Below are positions 819 to 40,328 of a stretch of DNA of 64,000 bases, one piece after another. The notes under the pieces are model-generated. The model saw nothing but the letters and a program-made list of their open reading frames with translations. It was not told the origin of the DNA and did no database searches. This stretch comes from Oscillospiraceae bacterium (GTDB taxonomy: Bacteria > Bacillota > Clostridia > Oscillospirales > Ruminococcaceae), in contig JAFUOD010000019.1 of the NCBI GenBank assembly GCA_017472735.1, positions 16,521 to 80,520 on the forward strand, read 5' to 3'. The translations under genes and the position numbers were made by a program. The first letter of the stretch is position 1. Each line of letters opens with the position of its first letter.

Positions 819-927
819 TGCTGCGGGCGCAGCCCCGCCCTGCCTGCGGCAGGGCGTCCCCGAGCGCCGCAGGCGCTCGGGGCAGTCGGGCGACGAAGCC
901 GCCCGACCGGCTGCGCCTCATGCAGCA
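819..927. repeat. GC-rich cloverleaf inverted-repeat element, copy 1
   Basis: An intergenic sequence that can fold as a closed four-way junction. The basal stem pairs 819-824 with 922-927 (TGCTGC/GCAGCA), then 826-834 with 909-917 (GGCGCAGCC/GGCTGCGCC). Three perfect hairpins sit inside: 837-844/848-855, 858-868/872-882 and 885-892/900-907. A second element at 4192-4313 shares the inner basal stem and overall plan but has different arm sequences. It lies between spoVAE and the convergent MATE gene. No coding potential of its own; its nature (MITE/REP-like or RNA) is unknown. Confidence 0.75.
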
Positions 928-953
928 AACGTCAAAAAAGCGCTTTGTTACAT

Positions 954-989
954 AAAAAGCAAGCCCCCGACAGCCTTGCGGGAGCTTGC
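954..989 (-). terminator. Rho-independent terminator of the MATE gene
   Basis: 959-969 pairs with 979-989 (GCAAGC plus a C/G run), and on the minus strand the stem is followed by CTTTTT. It sits just past the stop of the MATE exporter. Confidence 0.75.
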
Positions 990-1002
990 ATCAAGCTTTA
1001 AG

Positions 1003-2418
1003 TTATACGGTTTGTTCGTCGTTAAAGGTCAAAGCCTCGCAACTTGCCTGCTTGCATATGTTTCGGTAATGGAACGCAAAGCAGAGTGTATGTGTCAGCG
1101 TTGCGGCTATCCACGAAATAGGATAGGAGATAAACAGCATAATAAAGCATTGCTCGGTGGTGTGCCCTGCTGCTTTATATGTATTGAACACCGTAAATAT
1201 CCACAAAATTCTAAAGCCGCATACACACGCAATAGATACGATCGTAGGTGTAATCGAATGTCCGATTCCTCTAAGCATGCCAACCATAACATCCATCGTG
1301 CCGCACAAAAAGTATGTTAGGGCAATAACGCTCATTCTTAAAACGCCAAACTCTATTTCGATAGGGTTATCTGTATATATAGACAAAAGCGCAGGCGCAA
1401 AAATTCTGCACAACGCACCCATGACAAACCCAACAGTTGCAACAAGCCCCATGCATTCTAAGCAAACGGTCTTAATTCGCTTATATTGCTTTGCGCCATA
1501 GTTCTGGCTTGTGAAGGTTATCGCCGCCTGATGGAGCGAGTTCATCGCAACATAAATAAATCCTTCAATATTTCCTGCGGCACCGCTGCCAGCCATAACC
1601 TCAGAGCCGAAGCCGTTAACCGAGGACTGGATAATTACGTTAGAGATAGAAAACAGCGAGCCCTGAATACCGGCAGGCAAACCAACGGCAATTATTCTCA
1701 GCAGCTTGTCTTTGTGAATCTTTATTTTGGAAATATAAAGCTTAATGGGCCCCTCCGACTTGATAAGACACCTGATGACTAAAAATGCTGAGATCGCCTG
1801 TGAGATTATTGTTGCCAAAGCAACACCTGCAACATCCATGTGAAAGACAATAACAAAAATAAGGTTTAAAACAACATTCATTATGCCCGAGAATGTTAAA
1901 TAATAAAGAGGTCTTTTTGTGTCTCCTACTGCACGCATAATTGCCGCACCGAAGTTATAAAGCATGTTTACAGGCATACCCAAAAAGAAGATCTTAACAT
2001 AAAGCGCCGAAAGGTCAATAACGTTTTCGGGCGAGTCCATAAGTCTTAACAAGCTTTTCGAGGCAAAAAAGCCGAATGCGCCAACAATAACACCGCTTAT
2101 AAGTGCAACGGCAATCGCAGTGTGCAAGGCTTCACTTACGTCCTTATATCTGCCTGCGCCAAAGTTTTGTGCAACGACTACCGACGCACCTACGGAAAAG
2201 CCCATGAACATGTTTACAATAAGGTTTATAAGCGCTCCTGTCGAGGTTACGGCGGCAAGCGAGTTGTCGCTGGCAAACTGACCTACAACAATAATGTCGG
2301 CAGCGTTATATAAAAGCTGCAAAGTGCCTGTTAAAAGCAGCGGCAGGGTAAATTTAAGAATATTCCCCAATATCGGCCCGCGGGTCATATCCATTGAATT
2401 CTTTACGGTGGTATTCAA
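1003..2418 (-). CDS. MATE family efflux transporter
   Basis: A 471-residue inner membrane exporter of the multidrug and toxin extrusion family, which couples drug or metabolite export to Na+ or H+ entry. Twelve membrane segments in two MatE repeats (about residues 14-175 and 240-400) are visible; the N-terminal DMTRGPILGNILKFTLPLLL is typical of clostridial members. The chosen start is TTG at 2416-2418 because AAAGGAAG lies seven bases upstream; the alternative is the ATG eight codons later, which matches the usual family N-terminus. Substrate cannot be told. It stands alone on the minus strand, convergent with spoVA and divergent from the 2656 gene. Confidence 0.9.
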   Translation of the reverse strand: MNTTVKNSMDMTRGPILGNILKFTLPLLLTGTLQLLYNAADIIVVGQFASDNSLAAVTSTGALINLIVNMFMGFSVGASVVVAQNFGAGRYKDVSEALHTAIAVALISGVIVGAFGFFASKSLLRLMDSPENVIDLSALYVKIFFLGMPVNMLYNFGAAIMRAVGDTKRPLYYLTFSGIMNVVLNLIFVIVFHMDVAGVALATIISQAISAFLVIRCLIKSEGPIKLYISKIKIHKDKLLRIIAVGLPAGIQGSLFSISNVIIQSSVNGFGSEVMAGSGAAGNIEGFIYVAMNSLHQAAITFTSQNYGAKQYKRIKTVCLECMGLVATVGFVMGALCRIFAPALLSIYTDNPIEIEFGVLRMSVIALTYFLCGTMDVMVGMLRGIGHSITPTIVSIACVCGFRILWIFTVFNTYKAAGHTTEQCFIMLFISYPISWIAATLTHTLCFAFHYRNICKQASCEALTFNDEQTV

Positions 2419-2570
2419 AATTGCACTTCCTTTTGCTGATAATACATTAAAATATATTCTACTCCTTTATTTAGCCGATTTCAATAGGTTTTTAAAAGAT
2501 TTTCTATTTCGCAAAATGCTCAAAGCGATTCTAAGTTATTTGTAGAATATGACGATATTAAAAACATTCA

Positions 2571-2599
2571 TTGACAAAACTAACACTCTATTTTATTAT
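2571..2599 (+). promoter_or_regulatory. Sigma-A type promoter for the glycosidase-like gene
   Basis: TTGACA at 2571-2576 and TATTAT at 2594-2599, 17 bases apart, 57 bases before the start codon. A small GCCG/CGGC hairpin lies in the leader. Confidence 0.7.
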
Positions 2600-2655
2600 G
2601 AATATAGCCGTAAAACGGCAAAGCTTCTTTAATTTTTGTTGGAGGATATGAAAAT

Positions 2656-4113
2656 ATGAAAGAAATGAAAATATATTCGTTACATATGGGCGAGGCTATC
2701 TGTTCACTCGACTTGGGCGACGGCTCTGAGCGAGGCGAATATGTAAACCAAGATTACATTTTAAACAAGCTTGGCAGACCTCATCGCGGCATTAACTTAA
2801 TGTATTGCTACTATCCCTTAGATGAAGGTTGGCCTGCACGTGCCTCTGAGGCTTTTGAAGCAACCGACAAAACCAACGCTTGGGCTTACCCTTATGACGA
2901 TTATTTCCCTTATAAGGGCGGACTTAACGGCGATAAGAACGACCCTGTTTTTGAGCAGTTCCGTGACATTCGCCGCCACGGACAGGATTTGGTGTTTACC
3001 CTCACCATCGACCCTCATGTAAGCGACGAGCATTTAATTGCAATTGCAAACGATCTTAAACCATATGGCAGAGTTTTAATGAGGATCAATCACGAAGCAA
3101 CAGGTTCCTGGTTCTCGTTTAACAAAAGGTGCACTTACCAAGAGGTTGCAGATTTCTTCTGCCGCTTCCACGATATTATTCACGAGCATGCACCCAACGT
3201 TAAAACCATTCTTTGTATTGGCGGCATTGAATGGGACGGTGCCGAAAAGATCGTTATGGAAGACATTTTTGCCGAGGCAGTAAGAAAGACAGATATCTTC
3301 TCGGTTGATAAATACATGGCGCTTCATTGGGGCTGGCCTAACGACGTGGCCGAGAAGGATTCGCCCGTAAAGAGCTATAAATATGACGGTGCCGAGGCTG
3401 TTTACAGACAAACAAAAGCCTCTTACTTTAGGTTTAAAGAGATTTGTGACGGTAAAGACAAGCCGATGGTAATGAGCGAATTCAACGCCGACGGCGACGT
3501 TACCGGTCCTTATGACCAATGCAAGGTTATTAAGCACTTCTGCGATAAGATTATTGAGGACGACGCTAAGTGGTTCTCGGGCTTCACCTTCTATCAGTTC
3601 CGTGACAGAGGCAGACTTGGCCTTGAATGGCAAGACCCCAACAACTCCGATGTCGGTATTGAACTGCCTGCCCTTGCGACATATAAAGAGATCTTGAACA
3701 ACGAATGGTTTATGCCAAAGATGGATATCGGCTCTGAATTAAGCTTGCCTGCAACACTTCGCTGGGGCGGTGCCGAGGACGCCGAAGGCTTGGCAATACC
3801 CGTTACGGTAGAAAAAGACCCTGTTTTTTGCGAGCTTACATTCGATGATGACGATGATTCGAACCTTATGATCGAGTTTGCCGGCAGATGGTTCTATAAG
3901 TCTCCTAAGGCAAGATTCATTGACCTTATGCCTGCATTCTTTGACAAGAAGCTTGACGGCGCGACTGACTATACTCTTAAGATCTTCGCTCCTCCTGCAT
4001 CGGGCGAGAACGACCTTAGCATTGAAGACGGCGATGTTAACACATATACCGTTATCAAGTCGCTTCCCAAGCTTCGATTAAGATATGAGGCGGTTATACC
4101 TTATTCCAACTGA
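2656..4113 (+). CDS. Putative clan GH-A-like glycoside hydrolase, cytosolic
   Basis: A 485-residue protein without signal peptide. The first 350 residues read as a (beta/alpha)8 barrel: the segment RVLMRINHEATGSW places Glu147 as a possible acid/base at a strand end, and KPMVMSEFN places Glu275 as a possible nucleophile, the spacing seen in GH26/GH39-like enzymes. The last 120 residues look like a beta-rich accessory domain with an acidic DDDDD turn. No enzyme family is recognised with certainty and the substrate is unknown. The start is the ATG ten bases after GGAGG; an ATG at 2648 opens only a three-codon frame. It has its own promoter and terminator, so it is monocistronic. Confidence 0.6.
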   Translation: MKEMKIYSLHMGEAICSLDLGDGSERGEYVNQDYILNKLGRPHRGINLMYCYYPLDEGWPARASEAFEATDKTNAWAYPYDDYFPYKGGLNGDKNDPVFEQFRDIRRHGQDLVFTLTIDPHVSDEHLIAIANDLKPYGRVLMRINHEATGSWFSFNKRCTYQEVADFFCRFHDIIHEHAPNVKTILCIGGIEWDGAEKIVMEDIFAEAVRKTDIFSVDKYMALHWGWPNDVAEKDSPVKSYKYDGAEAVYRQTKASYFRFKEICDGKDKPMVMSEFNADGDVTGPYDQCKVIKHFCDKIIEDDAKWFSGFTFYQFRDRGRLGLEWQDPNNSDVGIELPALATYKEILNNEWFMPKMDIGSELSLPATLRWGGAEDAEGLAIPVTVEKDPVFCELTFDDDDDSNLMIEFAGRWFYKSPKARFIDLMPAFFDKKLDGATDYTLKIFAPPASGENDLSIEDGDVNTYTVIKSLPKLRLRYEAVIPYSN

Positions 4114-4122
4114 TAAAACAAA

Positions 4123-4163
4123 GCGCCTGCTCCGAATTTTTGGGGCAGGTGCTGCTGTTTTTT
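4123..4163 (+). terminator. Rho-independent terminator
   Basis: 4123-4133 pairs with 4142-4152 (11 bp including two G-T pairs) and is followed closely by a T run at 4158-4163. Ends the 2656 gene. Confidence 0.8.
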
Positions 4164-4191
4164 AAAATATGGTTTTGTCAGGCAGAACAGA

Positions 4192-4313
4192 GTGCGAGGG
4201 CGCAGCCCCACCCGCGGCACGGAACGTGCCGCGGGTGCCCCGCGCTTCGCGCGGGGTCGTCCCCAGCCCCCGACGCAGTCGGGGGGCTGGGGACAGGGCT
4301 GCGCCTTACGCAC
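4192..4313. repeat. GC-rich cloverleaf inverted-repeat element, copy 2
   Basis: Same architecture as 819-927: basal stem 4192-4196/4309-4313 (GTGCG/CGCAC) and 4199-4208/4296-4305 (GGCGCAGCCC/GGGCTGCGCC), enclosing hairpins 4210-4220/4226-4236, 4238-4245/4249-4256 and 4260-4274/4278-4293 (15 bp, one bulge). The outer basal stem differs in sequence from copy 1 yet still pairs, which is compensatory change. Both copies are followed by a CATCAAAAAGC-like flank (copy 1 has CGTCAAAAAAGC). It lies between convergent genes. Confidence 0.75.
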
Positions 4314-19180: not shown

Positions 19181-19255
19181 GTGCATGAACGGCTCGCCCA
19201 CGCCGCCCTTCGGGCGGCACTCGGCTCGCCTTGCAACGACCAAAGCCGAGCGCAC
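19181..19255. repeat. GC-rich structured intergenic element
   Basis: Between convergent transcription units: GTGC/GCAC ends (19181-19184, 19252-19255) enclose a GCCGCCC-TTC-GGGCGGC hairpin (19202-19218) and a CTCGGCT/AGCCGAG stem (19220-19226, 19244-19250). CGGCTCGCC occurs twice. It resembles the cloverleaf elements in plan but is smaller and not the same sequence. Confidence 0.5.
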
Positions 19256-33755: not shown

Positions 33756-36700
33756 CTATGCTTGAGGGCCTGAGTTTTGTGACGAAGCCAAGCGGCGATA
33801 ATACCAACCGGCGGCAGTGTTAAAAATCGGGTCGCCTCCTCTGCCATAACAGTTTTTGTTAGTGTAAATCTCGCCGCAGATATAATAAGGCTCTTGCTTG
33901 TAACCGGGCGTTTTCGCCACTTCCTCGGGCTTAAGTGCATTAAAAATGCTGTCAGCCTCGGGCAAAAGGCCTGCTTGCTTAAGCGCATTGGCAAACCAAA
34001 TTGCGGCGGCGGTATTTTGCCCGCCGTTTTGTTTAATGCCTTGAGGAAGGTATCTTACTTCATCGGGTGATTCCTCGCTGTCGGGGTCAAAAGGCGGTGA
34101 AAAAAGCTTTGTCACCCCGCGCTTTGGGTCGCACAGCATGCTGTATGCCTGCAAAAGTGCACCTTTGTCAAAATGGGCGTCAAGCCCTGCAAACAGTGCA
34201 AGCACCTGCGGCAGAAGGCTGATTTTGCAGGCATCGTTTTTTGTGCTACCCCATGTTTTGCCCGAGGGCAGATATCCGCCGATATATTGACTTGAATCTC
34301 TGCAATAGGCTTTAACGGTGTCACGCAAAGATTTAGCCGTGTGCATGAGCTGTGCCGAGTAGATATTATCTCCCTTGCGGCGTGATATCTCGCAAAAGCT
34401 ATCAAGTACAATAATAAAGAATTCGCTTAACCACACCGATTCGCGCTCGTGGCTATCAAGCATAAGCCCGTGTGAGCCTTTTTTGTCAATGCTTATGTCT
34501 ATCGCTCGGCGGCAGTGTTCATAAACGCTCTCTTTTTGCGAGGGCAAATCACAGTAGTTTACTGCGATATCTAAAAATCTGAAGTCGTCGGTCTGCTTTA
34601 TATATTCGCTTACCGCAAGAGGCAACCACAAATGTGCAAGCGAGCTTTTGGTTCGCTTATTTTTATTAAAAGCACTTTGCTTTGAAAATTCGGCGCAGGC
34701 ATCACCGTCAGAGAACTGGTGATAAGCGCACCTTAAAATCTCGGCCTTGCCCCTGGCGGGAAAAACGTCTGCAATGGCGCAGGCGTCCTGCAAAAGCTCG
34801 TCGAATTTATAGCATCCTTCGCCGTCTCCCAAATAAATACGTCCGTTTAAAAGCTGATATTTTGCCCACAAAAGCTCTCGCTCGTGCTTGGTTTTTGCTT
34901 CAGCCTTTTTGGAAGTACAGAACAGCGACGGCATTTTTGTTACAGCCTTTTCGCTTGCACCGAATGACAGATAAAAGCTTACTTCCTCGGCACCCGAAAG
35001 CTCTAAAACCAAAGCGCAGAAATCAATATTGCCGCTTACAGGCTGTGATTGCCACCTGCCGGCAAAAAACGCTTCTTTATCAAAGATAAAGTGCGGCAGC
35101 TTGTCGGCACTTATGCTTGCAAGTCTTTTTTTAAGATCAAATAAAGCGGCATATCCCGATTGATTTATAAGCCTTGCACCCTTTGCTTGGAACAGATAAG
35201 CTAAACGGCACTTTCGGTCTGCTATTATTTTAACCTTGCTTTGTTTGCACATGCCCTTTTTAGAAACACTTACCTTAACCTCGCTTTTAAAGCCCTCACC
35301 GAATGCCTTATAGCTTGCAAAGTCGGGCGAAAAGCACGCCGCAGCACCGTTTATAATATCATAATAGCTGCCGTCATATTCTAAAACAAGGCGCTCGTTA
35401 AAGTTGCCAAACGAGGTCTTGCCAAGCGAAGCGTTTTCGACAACGGCACCGAATACCGGGTTAGAAAGAACGTGCTGCCATTTTGCCTGCGGCCGCTCGT
35501 TGATTATATATTCGGTATTCATAAATCCGCCGCACGAGACAGCTTCTTCCACTGTTTGAGCTTGGGGACTTACCTTTTTTATTTCTATTCTTTCATAGGG
35601 TTGGCTGTCGGGCGGGTTAGAGATGATCTCGTCAGATGCTGTATAAGCTGCAAGGCGATATATGTCGTTGACTGTTTTGACATTAAATGCAAATTCATCA
35701 ATGGGTATAATACCGCCTTTTGTATAGATGAATCCTAAGGTGTCGCATTGCTTCGATGCCTCTAACAGCTTTGAATAAAAAATCCGCTCGGGTCTGCCGC
35801 TGTCGTTAAAGATTACAGCCATTTGCACCGAAATGCCGGCCTCGCGAAGAACTTTATATGCACCTAAAAAAGCATACAGCTTTTCGTCATCGTTTTTGTT
35901 GTTAAGCCTAAGAATTATAAGCGGAATATTTGGCAAAAGCCCGATGTCTGAAGCAAACGAGGTGTCAATTGGTTCATGTCTGCCAAAAAGGATGCTTGGT
36001 GCAATAATCTGTGCCAAAACAAGCTCTTTTGTGCTTTTTTGAATATGAGGGGTCAAAGACCGACCTCGCAGGGTGTTAATATCGGCGCTTAGCTTATCCA
36101 TGCTGTCGGCGCACAAAATAAACAGCGATTCTATCTGCTCGGCGCCTGCGTTAAGATGGATTTTTTGCTTTATAAACACACATGGCTCGGGCTCTGAAAC
36201 AAGGCTTGGCGCAATGCTATCACAGTTATTAAACACGTCTTTTACATCATCACAGCCCGAAAAAACGTTTTCTTTATCAAAGCTTGAATATGCAAAAGTG
36301 TCATTCAAAAATCCGATTGCCAATACTTGAGAGCAGTTATTATCTGCCCGTGAAACAGTTATAACACGCTGTTTGTCATCACGTTCAAGACGCAGGCTTA
36401 AACGATTTCTTTGGGTGTTGTCCTCGTAAGGCTTTAAAAGTGTTGGCTCAAGATATATAAGCAATGTGAGGTCAATGTCGATATTTGTTAAATTTTTAAG
36501 CTTAAACTGCCTTATTTCGCATGAAAGCGATGGGTGCAGCATAATATTAACGCTTGCTGAAATTTCGCTGTCACATTTTTTATAGCTTGCGCCGCAGTCG
36601 GTAAATTCGCCTTGCATACGGTCGGGCATATCAAGCATTATCAGGTTGCTTTGTGTTTTTACGCCCATAAAAATTCCGCGCTTGTTAAACGAAGGCTCAC

Positions 36701-39700
36701 GCGTGATTTCATAAATGCTCATGCCGTGGCTTAAGGCAATCGAAACGCCGCTGTCGGTTAATGCCAGCGAGTAACCGTCGTTACTTAACAGCTTAATTTT
36801 TGGGTCAGAGGCTGAAACGCTTAAAAACTTCTCTTTTGCCAAGCTTTCGCAGACATAAAGTGCCTTTGGCTTTCTTAGTGCCTTATAAACGGGCAACGAG
36901 CGTTCCTCTAAAAGCTCGAGCGCGCCTAAAATGTGCTTATTCTTTGCTGTGCGCCTTTGCAAAATGCCTTTGTTAAGGGCGTTAGAGCAGCTTGCGATCA
37001 TCTGACCAACATGGCGCGAGGCAAGAAGCTTTACCACCGACTGATTATCGTTCGAGGTATAGTCAACCGCCTCAAAAAAGCCAAAATTGCCGTATGCTCC
37101 CGCTTTTTTAAGCTTAAGGAGGTTTTCGGTGCAGGCGTGTGTGCCGAAATCAAGCGCCAACATTGCTGAATGAGGCGAAACCGAGTAGATAGACGTGTTT
37201 GTGGGGGATATTGCTGCTTTTGCCGCACCAAGATTTTGTGTGCGGTAATTAAGGCCCGAGTCAAAAAGGCAGACGCCGCTTTTGCTCAACCCAAACGGCA
37301 GCCCTTTTGAGATGCCAAGCTTTTTGCTGACATAAAGCGCAAACTTTAAGCTTTCATAAAATATTGAGCCTTGCGGACTTTTTATGAAGATCTCGGGCAA
37401 AAAAAATTCCTCGGCACTGCCGTGCGGCGACCCAAGACCACTGTAAAATCCGCACTTAAGGGTTTCTCGTCTTAGACTTTGCCAGTGACTTTTCGGCACG
37501 TTTTTCGAGGCAACAGCATAAAATGAGCAAAGGCGTGAAGCACTCATCAGGTGTTGATGATGCTCGCATCCCGAAGTAAGCGTTTGGCAGTCAAAGCTTT
37601 TGCACATTAAGCCGCTTACGCCGTCATAAAAAACGCTAAGGTCAATCAGGTCTATCATTCTGTCAAGCCGTTCTGCTAAAATCTGAGCTTTGTCATATAC
37701 TTTGCCAAGCTTTCTCAGCCCCTCGCTTAAGCAAACAAGCGAAGTTACATATATGCCCATGTCCTCGCTTAAAGCAACGCTTGATTCAGCGGTTAAAGTA
37801 AGTGTGCTGTAGCTTTCAAACAAACAGCCATCGAATTTGTCAAGTCTGTCAACCGAGTCGAGGCAGGTCTCGACCCTTGAAGCCATTGCCTGTGCCGTTA
37901 TAAGCTTTAAGTCGTATGCTGACAGGCAGGAAATAAGATACAGCCCGATTTCCGCCGGACCTGTCGAGTGCGAAATTCTGTATACAGGTGAGAATTGCAC
38001 GCTTTTTGGAGGAAGGTTGTTGTCAGCCTCGGTGACATATTCGTTAAAGAACTTCCACGAGTCCTTTGCATATTGCAATAAGTCTTTAGTTTCTTTAAAC
38101 GAGAGACGGTGTTCTTTTTTTGAGACTTCGTGTTCGCTTAATGCTAAAACAGCAGGCATAAGTGCAAAAAACAGTGCAAAAAGCCTTATTGTATATCCGG
38201 GCGAGCGAAACAGAATTAAGCTTATAAGCATTGGTGCAATATAAAAGCTCAGTGGGTCGGATGCTGTCAGGTTTTCACTTAAAAGGCGCTTGCGGGTCAA
38301 CCCTCGAACCAAAGCCGAAGATATAGCCCAAAGCGATTTTTGGGCGAGTGTCGGAAGCATCACAATGCTGTAAACGGCATTTTTAATGCCCCATGCCGAA
38401 TTTGCCCAAAGCTTTGACTTTAAAGCCGTAAGTGCCAAGGGCAAAAGCCACATAACAATGCCCAAAAGTGCGGCAAATTCTGCGGTGGGCGGATAAAGAA
38501 AGAATACAAAATACATATTTGCCATTAAACTTAAGGGCAACAATGCGTTTAAAAAGCTTCCTATTATTTTCATTCGCGAGGCTAAGCAGACCTGCCGTCT
38601 AAAAGCATGCCCAAGGTTATATACCGCCCCTCGCACCTGTGTTATTTTTTTGCGGTAAAACCGCTGAGGAATGTCGGGGAAGGTGTCATAAAACATGGCA
38701 TCAGCCGCCTTAACGCACTTAAGGCTTTCACCGTCTAAAGCTTCGGCAGTGTGTGCTTTTTCCAAGGTGCTTGCGCTTAGTTCGTTATAATAAAGTTCGG
38801 TGTTTATAAGCCCTATGCCGTTAAACGTGGCCATGCCGAAAAGCTCGCTGAAAACATCCTCTCTTTCTGACTTAACAGAAAACACCCTTGAAAAGCCGCT
38901 TGCAAGCGCACTTTCAAGCTTTGGACCGGTGTTTGGCACAATGATTCCAAAGCCTTTTATAATTTTGCCGTCTTTAACACGGGGCAGGTTGCAGGGGTGC
39001 ATAGCGATCTGCAAAAGGGTACCGACTGCGTCAAGCTCGGGGGTGCAGTTGTTGTCCATAATTGCCATAAAGCGTGTGCCGATAAGGCTTTCGCTGTCGC
39101 CAAATATGGCATAAAAATCATGTGCGCCGTTTTGCAAAAAGCTTGACAGTTCAAAAAGCGCACCACGCTTGCCGCCTGCACCCATATATTCCTCTTGCGA
39201 CTTTGAAAAACTGCGCTTGCGAATTATTCCGACATATCTTCCTTTTTCGCTTTCGTTAAGACTTGTAATCATCTCCTGCGCCGAATTAAGAGTGGGAGTG
39301 TCGTCGGGGATCGTGGGTGCTTGTTCGGGCAAAAGGTCAATAAGACATACAACTTTTGCATCTAATCCGCTTACGGTGCTTGAAAGCTTTTTAAGACGGT
39401 CGGATATTCGGCTTATATCAACGCTTTCGCTTAACATGGTGTAACAAACTATTGCAAGCTTTTCGCTTTTAACCTTGTCCGAGGTTTCACTCAGCCGCCA
39501 CAGATAATTCGGCTTTTGCCCCCAAAGCACAACGCTGTCGACAATTGCCTTTGCGGCGCAAAGCGAGGGTAAAAACAGCATGGGTGCCACCCACCATTCA
39601 AGTGTTAAAAGGCTAAAGCCTGCTGAAAGCGAAACAGCAATTGAAAGATAACAAACCGCAAGAATTATTGCTTTTGCCGCTGTGCGGTGATAGGTCGGCA

Positions 39701-40328
39701 GTAAAACCTCGCTTAAATCAAGGGCGTGCATTTTTGCGTGCTCTAAAAGCTCTTTTGCAGCTTCAACTTCATCATTTGGCGCTGTTCTGTAAATAATACG
39801 GCGATATTGACGCTGGGTTTTCAAGTCGCTTTCGCAATAGGTCTCATCGTTTTCGGTCAAATAGTTATGCAAAGGGTCGCACGACGAGGTTACAGCATTA
39901 AAATCGATCTGCTTAACGCTTTGATAAAGGCTTAAAGAATCGGCTTCTTCATTGCTTTTTAATGTGTTGCAAATTGATGTTATCAGCTCGACAAGCAAAG
40001 CGTTTTTAAGCGTATCAATTTCAATCGAGGTCACACGGCGCTGCGCCATTACACCGCTTATTATCATTATAATTTTTTCTGTGCTTTCAAAGCAGCTGCC
40101 GCTGTGACTTATTATCTCTTGTGCAAGACTCATATCCTGCGGCAGATCTTCTTTTAAAACCGTTAGCTCGGCTATATCCCTGCTTATATCGGGATATAGA
40201 TAAGTGAACAGACGTTGACAGGCTGTAAGATTATCTTTGCGGCAAAGCAAAAAATATTCCTGCTTTAAAGCTCTGCCTGCTTTTTTTAGCTGCCTTAATG
40301 CCGCCTGCATTTTAATAGACCCTTTCAT
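33756..40328 (-). CDS. NdvB-like giant protein (GT84/GH94 type) with eroded active-site motifs
   Basis: A 2190-residue protein with the layout of cyclic beta-1,2-glucan synthases. An N-terminal cytosolic part and membrane segments (about 205-255) precede a GT84-like domain (about 330-590), further membrane segments (about 600-665 and 720-760), a glucoamylase-like middle (about 850-1200) and a GH94 phosphorylase-like C-terminus (about 1300-2190). Conserved motifs are changed: where GH94 proteins have GDWNDG between SHGL and ESVWL, this one reads SHGLMLDSHERESVWLSEFF (about 1952-1971), lacking the catalytic Asp segment. The MAHHQGMSL motif appears as LASRHVGQMIASC. AAAGGCGG precedes the ATG. 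Either a pseudoenzyme or an enzyme of changed specificity. Confidence 0.75.
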   Translation of the reverse strand: MKGSIKMQAALRQLKKAGRALKQEYFLLCRKDNLTACQRLFTYLYPDISRDIAELTVLKEDLPQDMSLAQEIISHSGSCFESTEKIIMIISGVMAQRRVTSIEIDTLKNALLVELITSICNTLKSNEEADSLSLYQSVKQIDFNAVTSSCDPLHNYLTENDETYCESDLKTQRQYRRIIYRTAPNDEVEAAKELLEHAKMHALDLSEVLLPTYHRTAAKAIILAVCYLSIAVSLSAGFSLLTLEWWVAPMLFLPSLCAAKAIVDSVVLWGQKPNYLWRLSETSDKVKSEKLAIVCYTMLSESVDISRISDRLKKLSSTVSGLDAKVVCLIDLLPEQAPTIPDDTPTLNSAQEMITSLNESEKGRYVGIIRKRSFSKSQEEYMGAGGKRGALFELSSFLQNGAHDFYAIFGDSESLIGTRFMAIMDNNCTPELDAVGTLLQIAMHPCNLPRVKDGKIIKGFGIIVPNTGPKLESALASGFSRVFSVKSEREDVFSELFGMATFNGIGLINTELYYNELSASTLEKAHTAEALDGESLKCVKAADAMFYDTFPDIPQRFYRKKITQVRGAVYNLGHAFRRQVCLASRMKIIGSFLNALLPLSLMANMYFVFFLYPPTAEFAALLGIVMWLLPLALTALKSKLWANSAWGIKNAVYSIVMLPTLAQKSLWAISSALVRGLTRKRLLSENLTASDPLSFYIAPMLISLILFRSPGYTIRLFALFFALMPAVLALSEHEVSKKEHRLSFKETKDLLQYAKDSWKFFNEYVTEADNNLPPKSVQFSPVYRISHSTGPAEIGLYLISCLSAYDLKLITAQAMASRVETCLDSVDRLDKFDGCLFESYSTLTLTAESSVALSEDMGIYVTSLVCLSEGLRKLGKVYDKAQILAERLDRMIDLIDLSVFYDGVSGLMCKSFDCQTLTSGCEHHQHLMSASRLCSFYAVASKNVPKSHWQSLRRETLKCGFYSGLGSPHGSAEEFFLPEIFIKSPQGSIFYESLKFALYVSKKLGISKGLPFGLSKSGVCLFDSGLNYRTQNLGAAKAAISPTNTSIYSVSPHSAMLALDFGTHACTENLLKLKKAGAYGNFGFFEAVDYTSNDNQSVVKLLASRHVGQMIASCSNALNKGILQRRTAKNKHILGALELLEERSLPVYKALRKPKALYVCESLAKEKFLSVSASDPKIKLLSNDGYSLALTDSGVSIALSHGMSIYEITREPSFNKRGIFMGVKTQSNLIMLDMPDRMQGEFTDCGASYKKCDSEISASVNIMLHPSLSCEIRQFKLKNLTNIDIDLTLLIYLEPTLLKPYEDNTQRNRLSLRLERDDKQRVITVSRADNNCSQVLAIGFLNDTFAYSSFDKENVFSGCDDVKDVFNNCDSIAPSLVSEPEPCVFIKQKIHLNAGAEQIESLFILCADSMDKLSADINTLRGRSLTPHIQKSTKELVLAQIIAPSILFGRHEPIDTSFASDIGLLPNIPLIILRLNNKNDDEKLYAFLGAYKVLREAGISVQMAVIFNDSGRPERIFYSKLLEASKQCDTLGFIYTKGGIIPIDEFAFNVKTVNDIYRLAAYTASDEIISNPPDSQPYERIEIKKVSPQAQTVEEAVSCGGFMNTEYIINERPQAKWQHVLSNPVFGAVVENASLGKTSFGNFNERLVLEYDGSYYDIINGAAACFSPDFASYKAFGEGFKSEVKVSVSKKGMCKQSKVKIIADRKCRLAYLFQAKGARLINQSGYAALFDLKKRLASISADKLPHFIFDKEAFFAGRWQSQPVSGNIDFCALVLELSGAEEVSFYLSFGASEKAVTKMPSLFCTSKKAEAKTKHERELLWAKYQLLNGRIYLGDGEGCYKFDELLQDACAIADVFPARGKAEILRCAYHQFSDGDACAEFSKQSAFNKNKRTKSSLAHLWLPLAVSEYIKQTDDFRFLDIAVNYCDLPSQKESVYEHCRRAIDISIDKKGSHGLMLDSHERESVWLSEFFIIVLDSFCEISRRKGDNIYSAQLMHTAKSLRDTVKAYCRDSSQYIGGYLPSGKTWGSTKNDACKISLLPQVLALFAGLDAHFDKGALLQAYSMLCDPKRGVTKLFSPPFDPDSEESPDEVRYLPQGIKQNGGQNTAAAIWFANALKQAGLLPEADSIFNALKPEEVAKTPGYKQEPYYICGEIYTNKNCYGRGGDPIFNTAAGWYYRRLASSQNSGPQA

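Follow-up and report, generated by a model that had tools for sequence, protein, structure and literature searches.

Repetitive extragenic palindromes (REPs) are defined, in the part of the source considered here, by a conserved tetranucleotide, mostly GTAG, that stands before a palindrome (PMC8266576). REPINs (REP doublets forming hairpins) are described, in an equally partial account, as combining inverted hairpin ends with a variable middle that pairs, and as occurring in clusters (PMC3116915). A repeat that resembles them was recognized in a stretch of 64,000 nucleotides (the window) from an Oscillospiraceae bacterium (assembly GCA_017472735.1, contig JAFUOD010000019.1, positions 16,521 to 80,520). 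The window carries two intergenic elements, copy 1 and copy 2, each of which folds as a cloverleaf made of a basal stem and three hairpins (arms).

These cloverleafs probably belong to a non-autonomous REPIN-like repeat that acts as folded DNA and whose palindromes are kept perfect partly by template switching. This reading starts from what is directly observed, namely the architecture of the elements, their recurrence, the near-absence of G-T pairs, the changes of loops on unchanged stems and the presence, in some relatives, of near-identical copies at different places. Arms that differ from copy to copy while pairing almost perfectly are an unusual natural setting in which to test how palindromes in DNA spread and are maintained.

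Architecture of the Cloverleaf Elements

Both elements lie where the preliminary description of this DNA had placed them, with a base and three hairpins, and fold far beyond dinucleotide shuffles. The z scores are -7.1 (copy 1) and -11.3 (copy 2) for the RNA folds, and -7.5/-8.0 (copy 1) and -12.7/-12.5 (copy 2) for the DNA folds of the two strands, 0 of 200 shuffles being as good. In copy 1, an outer stem (TGCTGC 819-824 / GCAGCA 922-927) surrounds an inner stem (GGCGCAGCC 826-834 / GGCTGCGCC 909-917). Copy 2 has the same inner stem within another outer stem (GTGCG 4192-4196 / CGCAC 4309-4313), and the stem letters first reported were correct. The right flank, which had been described as partly shared, amounts to an approximate match only (CGTCAAAAAAGCG for copy 1, CATCAAAAGC for copy 2). 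The outer stem is present in both copies, but as a trait of the family it is weakly supported: it reaches at least 4 bp in 33% of 139 anchored copies versus 25% with shuffled partners. Two islands of the window, at 19181 and 26693, had been put forward as possible relatives and were discarded. Their z scores are -2.0 and -2.9, neither has a three-armed fold, and, within the window, a covariance model made from one copy of this genome has no matches besides the two named elements.

Copies were catalogued with a geometric finder, at a filter of at least 88% Watson-Crick pairs and a G+C content over 60%, mostly in DNA chosen because it contained matches. The two sides of the base usually form mini-hairpins of their own, either GGGC-GAA-GCCC or GGGC-GCA-GCCC. 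The ends of the element are inverted mini-hairpins, mostly 5' GGGC-GNA-GCCC ... GGGC-TNC-GCCC 3', that pair with each other as the base. They constitute terminal inverted repeats, as in miniature inverted-repeat transposable elements (MITEs), the basal stem being mostly GGGCGMAGCCC/GGGCTKCGCCC, and 102 of the 142 copies catalogued contain the core GGC-GAA-GCC. As the base is its own reverse complement, both strands read alike.

The middle consists of three hairpins that are rich in G+C and nearly perfect; most of them end in C-GNA-G or C-TNC-G triloops, and the number of three arms per element is partly a consequence of the search design. Fully Watson-Crick arms make up 489 of the 597 catalogued, among which a few entries of genomes G018 and G019 represent a second kind of three-hairpin repeat. 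In the source genome they are 70 of 81, one of its 27 entries (L187:3025) being a part of the C25:96033 copy re-read at the edge of a locus. The triloops are GNA or its complement TNC in 367 of 451 cases and are closed by C-G in 436 of 451; of 20 triloop hairpins located apart from the elements, within 464 kb of the source genome, only 5 have GNA or TNC (Fisher p 1.7e-7). Likewise, 259 of the 325 loops of the first 142 copies are GNA or TNC, against a mean of 41 and a maximum of 61 when the loop letters are shuffled. GNA triloops are exceptionally stable in DNA hairpins. The 81 arms of the source genome are also skewed, with a C-rich 5' side and a G-rich 3' side (C 475 and G 238 in the 5' strands).

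The second three-hairpin repeat has another base (e.g., AAGGGGATTTCGC ... CCTTTT) and is found at L211:1846 and L271:3237 in G018 and at L297:2951 and L342:16523 in G019. It is apparently common to these two species, with conserved arms. Short arrays such as GACTTCTGACTTCTGACC(T)CTG adjoin several cloverleafs of G019 (L194, L297, L299 and other loci of this genome).

Recurrence in the Source Genome

The stem sequence GGCGCAGCC occurs at 29 places genome-wide versus 2 for the reversed pattern, and a second form of the stem, GGGCGAAGCC, at 33 places versus 4. Such excesses indicate recurrence beyond chance. With the geometric finder, the loci examined first yielded 10 distinct three-armed elements. 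Over 464 kb of the genome, 11 places (one of them AT-rich) scored at least 35, versus 0 in one local dinucleotide shuffle. A contig of 431 kb has no GC-rich cloverleaf of this score within its first 200 kb (G000 C29:1-200000, L032-L041), against ten in the remaining 264 kb of the 464, part of which had been chosen for its matches.

The covariance model R1, seeded from one copy of this genome, found again most of the known copies. The model R2, built from the result of the R1 search and run over the whole genome, found 26 places, 25 of them at E<=0.002. Copy 1 of the window and C7:62748 (both found by R1) and C8:79800 (found by geometry) are outside the R2 list; the family therefore has at least 28 copies in this genome. 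The covariance search of the genome and its relatives that the preliminary description had called for thus returned many further copies, whose arms still pair, and its proposal of a non-coding structured repeat family that keeps its structure while losing its sequence is borne out.

Pairing as DNA or as RNA

In an alignment of 37 rows, fitted to the structure and including both strands of most copies, pairing holds in 96.2% of the cells (59.1% in shuffles), and both partners have changed in 48 of 50 pairs. Its arm columns include 18 G-U and 30 unpaired among 1142 cells. Because a G-U intermediate formed by one strand corresponds to an A-C mismatch in the complementary strand, few G-U pairs are what a DNA palindrome would predict. 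The working form would then be folded single-stranded DNA or an extruded cruciform rather than RNA. Compensatory change is usually read as evidence of RNA function, an inference that would fail for a DNA repeat with such extreme compensation and very few G-U pairs.

A structured RNA (small RNA, stabiliser of a 3' untranslated region or terminator) selected for its fold was one of the candidates proposed initially. It would be in keeping with the strong RNA folds of both window copies and with the position of the copies of the source genome, mostly between tandem genes and close 3' of a gene. Besides the few G-U pairs, the loops, which switch class freely, disfavour it. Furthermore, the window has no Rfam match at gathering score, and a permissive search of six loci gave only matches below gathering score, except two tRNAs. 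Terminator-like calls on elements are not enriched over shuffles (6 versus 5.0). The only one on copy 2 itself is a 6-bp call on the - strand at its edge (4211-4194), whereas a separate terminator-like hairpin (4122-4153) precedes this copy. An RNA role is thus very unlikely.

The gene context bears on another explanation, in which the elements are binding sites of a nucleoid or junction-binding protein, mimicking a four-way junction and selected as extruded cruciforms. The junction geometry itself would suit such a protein, as would GNA loops, which make DNA hairpins more stable. In the source genome, with the elements masked during the calling of open reading frames (ORFs), 18 copies are in tandem, 4 in convergent and 2 in divergent contexts, 3 being unclassified, while background gaps, counted with a slightly different ORF limit, are 77 tandem, 16 convergent and 35 divergent. 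Divergent contexts seem rare for the elements (2/24 versus 35/128, p 0.067), but they are not rare in the relatives (21 of 102 classified; 58 tandem, 23 convergent, 21 divergent, 13 unclassified). As copy numbers from 3 to 205 within one clade also fit a selfish repeat better, a protein-binding site appears the most improbable of the explanations considered.

Sharing and Turnover of the Arms

Some relatives carry subfamilies, i.e., near-identical copies at different places. The 8-mers common to arms of different copies far exceed those of shuffled stems in G018 (436 versus 23), G019 (145 versus 8), G021 (47 versus 4) and G015 (19 versus 3), and exceed them in G005 (7 versus 1.3, maximum 4). 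In the source genome, the 81 arms have 24 such 8-mers versus a mean of 20.2 and a maximum of 38 with shuffled stems. This contrast suggests that some genomes harbour young subfamilies, while the copies of the source genome have drifted and still pair.

The way in which arms change can be followed in 12 copies from six contigs of G019, chosen for their base and for their stems in arms 1 and 3. The middle stem is identical in all 12, whereas its loop is TTC in 6, GAA in 3 and GCA, GCC and GGA in 1 each, which includes the exact inversion GAA/TTC. The loop of arm 1 is GAA in all of them and that of arm 3 is TGC in 8 and TTC in 4. Orthologous sites show comparable changes. At L225:4597/L235:2534 (G005/G011), whose flanks are 83-84% identical, the stems of arms 1 and 3 are identical, the loops changed from TTC to TCC and from TTC to GAA, and arm 2 is rewritten on both sides and still pairs. 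At the L193/L209 site, one pair of arm 1 is compensated and arm 2 is rewritten; the L207/L210 site retains similar arms whose loops have changed. At L225:2459/L235:406, the order of the arms seems reversed relative to the flanks, which appears to result from an inversion or from an independent insertion.

Loop inversion and two-sided change are given as signatures of template switching in a study, considered here in part, that deals with RNA genes, in which loop inversions are rare (PMC8794818). The inverted loops and two-sided changes of the cloverleaf arms are what such switching leaves. With stems this short, inversion by short-read assembly should not occur. Loop inversions on unchanged stems are only modestly frequent, and stems that remain unchanged in orthologs with flanks about 83% identical imply that selection on stems or conversion is needed besides template switching. 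Many near-identical copies in which stems stay constant and loops change, at times by inversion, would document template switching in bacteria.

The compensated and rewritten arms, the loop inversion and the unrelated arm sequences of the copies of the source genome could also be expected from a pure mutational product, i.e., palindromes made and kept by template switching, with neither mobility nor function. Nevertheless, the conserved inverted ends, the three arms found each time and the near-identical subfamilies at different places all need a copying process, and 14 of the 15 element-bearing genomes are in one clade. It is therefore improbable that mutation alone made the family.

Spread and Putative Mover

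Under the favoured reading of a REPIN-like repeat acting as DNA, the copies would spread as folded DNA, aided by an enzyme acting in trans, and this spread would be clearest in G018, G019, G021 and G015. After spreading, template switching at the replication fork, from one side of an arm to the other, would keep the palindromes perfect; it would invert loops and rewrite both sides of a stem at once. Selection for the fold may or may not contribute to this upkeep. In the source genome, spreading appears to have stopped, which would explain arms that have drifted beyond recognition and still pair. If copies do spread as folded DNA, this would point to an undescribed structure-recognising enzyme in Clostridia. 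More tentatively, the cloverleafs could even represent a kind of mobile DNA that is inherited as a fold rather than as a sequence; such a three-armed element would be known by its shape and its GNA mini-hairpins and copied in folded form, with arms that template switching can rewrite, invert or exchange as long as they pair.

The preliminary description had suggested a mobilisation in trans. Near-identical copies at different places, tandem arrays and sites occupied in one species but not in another agree with it; for example, L225:2459 and L235:406 have an element, which L244 lacks at the corresponding site. The suggestion is supported only in part, as neither a clean junction or target duplication nor a mobilising enzyme was found.

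One candidate mover is a REP-associated tyrosine transposase (RAYT), the Y1 (HUH) enzyme that moves REPINs proper, in which case the element would be two inverted REPs with an unusually folded middle. The two inverted units that form hairpins, together with a middle that varies and pairs, are those of a REPIN, and a tandem array of four copies in about 430 bp exists at L261. Y1_Tnp (PF01797) was found in 8 of 30 genomes of the genus, in 7 of the 15 element-bearing ones versus 1 of 15 others (p 0.035), an association that is confounded by clade. It has no match in the source genome, nor in G003, G005, G007, G010, G021, G023 and G028. Among 12 Y1 loci examined, none has a complete cloverleaf nearby and 3 have a basal-stem sequence; the three whose ends were inspected are IS200-sized units with end hairpins of their own, unlike the cloverleaf ends. 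RAYT was consequently rejected as the mover, having no match in the source genome and no link to the elements in the other genomes of the genus. The flanking tag is also lacking, with GTAG 4 times and CGTC 3 times among 278 outer flanks. As both the tag and a RAYT of the source genome were looked for and neither was found, the repeat is not filed as a REPIN, and its being one in the strict sense is unlikely, although this is the least improbable of the alternatives.

The IS200-like units, of about 730-745 bp with Y1_Tnp, are at L280-L291, and Y1 matches number ten in G004 and two in G019. These units bear single hairpins that resemble one cloverleaf arm, a likeness that is a lead only.

Several points weigh against a REPIN-like repeat maintained partly by template switching. 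Several candidate sites without the element were compared, but none proved to be a clean empty site or gave a target duplication, as the intergenic DNA of the species without it could not be aligned. The search for a mobilising enzyme identified none. The catalogue filter favours clean copies. Arm sharing does not exceed shuffles in G010 (14 versus 11.1, maximum 22) or in G004 (12 versus 5.6, maximum 14). Among 104 non-independent comparisons of triloops on identical stems, 21 are inverted, 36 the same and 47 other; in pairs with all three stems identical, also non-independent, these numbers are 9, 88 and 52. Finally, template switching alone leaves the unchanged stems of orthologs unexplained.

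Distribution among Genomes

Looking for the repeat with the model R2 in 60 genomes, including the source genome, led to 16 matched genomes, i.e., 15 of 31 in the genus and G031 of another genus of the same family. The 15 include G027, with a single weak match and a poor fold, and the match of G031 (L205:1509) is cloverleaf-like, with the base GGCGCAGC/GCTGCGCC. In a sample of 119 genomes of the family, the model matched the source genome and G023. Model searches across more than 40 genomes used stricter filters: G015, which has 15 pattern matches, was missed in the 60-genome search, and G031, matched there, was not matched in the 119-genome sample. With a strict pattern, 1 of 398 genomes of a phylum sample was matched, the source genome itself.

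A looser pattern matched 18 of the 31 genomes of the genus, versus 0 in all 31 for the reversed pattern. In three of them (G008, G002 and G029), the pattern matches only once or twice, and by eye no three clean arms are seen in the printed part of these matches. The other 15, called element-bearing (at least 3 looser-pattern matches), have from 3 (G016) to 205 (G019), with 157 in G018, 74 in G021 and 6 in the source genome, which counts as bearing by model and was labelled 29 in the tree and association tests. In a MurA tree of 30 genomes (30 loci, G022 being absent), 14 bearers form one side of a 100/100 branch, and the source genome is on the other side, without resolved position there. Two changes suffice to explain presence of the element on this tree, versus a mean of 10.2 with shuffled labels. 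In what was searched, the repeat is essentially confined to one genus.

More distant DNA was sampled through the 485-aa ORF that precedes copy 2, keeping 80 of its 275 relatives (62-67% identical, 0.86 Mb). These 80 loci have 6 three-armed folds, none with the base of the family, versus 0 after shuffling. Carriage by phages was considered and rejected, as none of 3 strict-pattern matches in viral_contigs is a cloverleaf according to the finder; the reversed pattern had one match there, a different three-hairpin stretch. Loss of the hairpin nuclease SbcD as a permissive cause was also rejected because the opposite is seen: SbcD is over the cut-off in 9 of 15 bearers and 2 of 16 others (p 0.009, confounded by clade).

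Positions and Neighbours of the Window Elements

Copy 1 is flanked by a SpoVAEB-like gene and by a MatE gene in convergent orientation. Copy 2 lies 3' of the 485-aa ORF, which has no Pfam match at E<=0.001, and faces a convergent Cu/Zn superoxide dismutase ORF (PF00080; 4329-4832, - strand), here in a clostridial genome. The window also includes a very large ORF of 2190 aa (33756-40328, - strand).

Table 1. Positions of the two cloverleaf elements and of their parts in the window.
Feature	Position	Strand	Basis
Cloverleaf element, copy 1	819..927	.	DNA/RNA folds; covariance-model match 817-925, 33.2 bits; gene names
Copy 1 basal stem, 5' side (GGGC-GCA-GCC, also a mini-hairpin by itself)	825..834	.	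Fold, geometric finder
Copy 1 arm 1, 9 bp, loop TGC	836..856	.	Geometric finder
Copy 1 arm 2, 11 bp, loop GCA	858..882	.	Geometric finder
Copy 1 arm 3, 8 bp, 7-nt loop	885..907	.	Geometric finder
Copy 1 basal stem, 3' side	909..918	.	Fold, geometric finder
Cloverleaf element, copy 2	4192..4313	.	Folds, terminator scan; covariance-model match 4191-4313, 45.2 bits
Copy 2 inner basal stem, 5' side	4197..4208	.	Fold
Copy 2 arm 1, 13 bp, loop GAA	4209..4237	.	Fold
Copy 2 arm 2, 8 bp, loop TTC	4238..4256	.	Fold
Copy 2 arm 3, 16 bp, one bulged base	4259..4294	.	Fold
Copy 2 inner basal stem, 3' side	4296..4307	.	Fold

Comparison with Known Systems

No description of this cloverleaf family appeared among the listed results of the open-access literature searches. 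MITEs are, like the cloverleafs, small and non-coding, with inverted ends and copies at many places. However, identity between cloverleaf copies is largely lost while pairing is kept, no target duplication was obtained, the flanks being too diverged at sites without the element, and no related insertion sequence was found among the Y1/IS200 units, the only ones examined, whose ends differ.

The hairpins attributed to template switching in the part of PMC8794818 considered here share with the cloverleaf arms perfect stems, two-sided changes and inverted loops. They belong to RNA genes and their loop inversions are rare, whereas the cloverleafs are non-coding and their loops change often. The subterminal hairpins of IS200/IS605 elements have short GC-rich stems and three-base loops, as the arms do, but these elements encode their own transposase and have single end hairpins, while a cloverleaf is a junction of three hairpins plus a base.

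The closest resemblance is with REPINs and bacterial interspersed mosaic elements (BIMEs). As in these, the cloverleafs are about 100 bp long and non-coding, have inverted hairpin ends and a variable pairing middle with compensatory changes, form tandem clusters and reach a high copy number in some genomes. They differ by the lack of a GTAG/CGTC tag and of a Y1_Tnp found in the source genome, by arms that are beyond recognition in that genome, by ends that are mostly GNA mini-hairpins and by a middle made of three separate hairpins.

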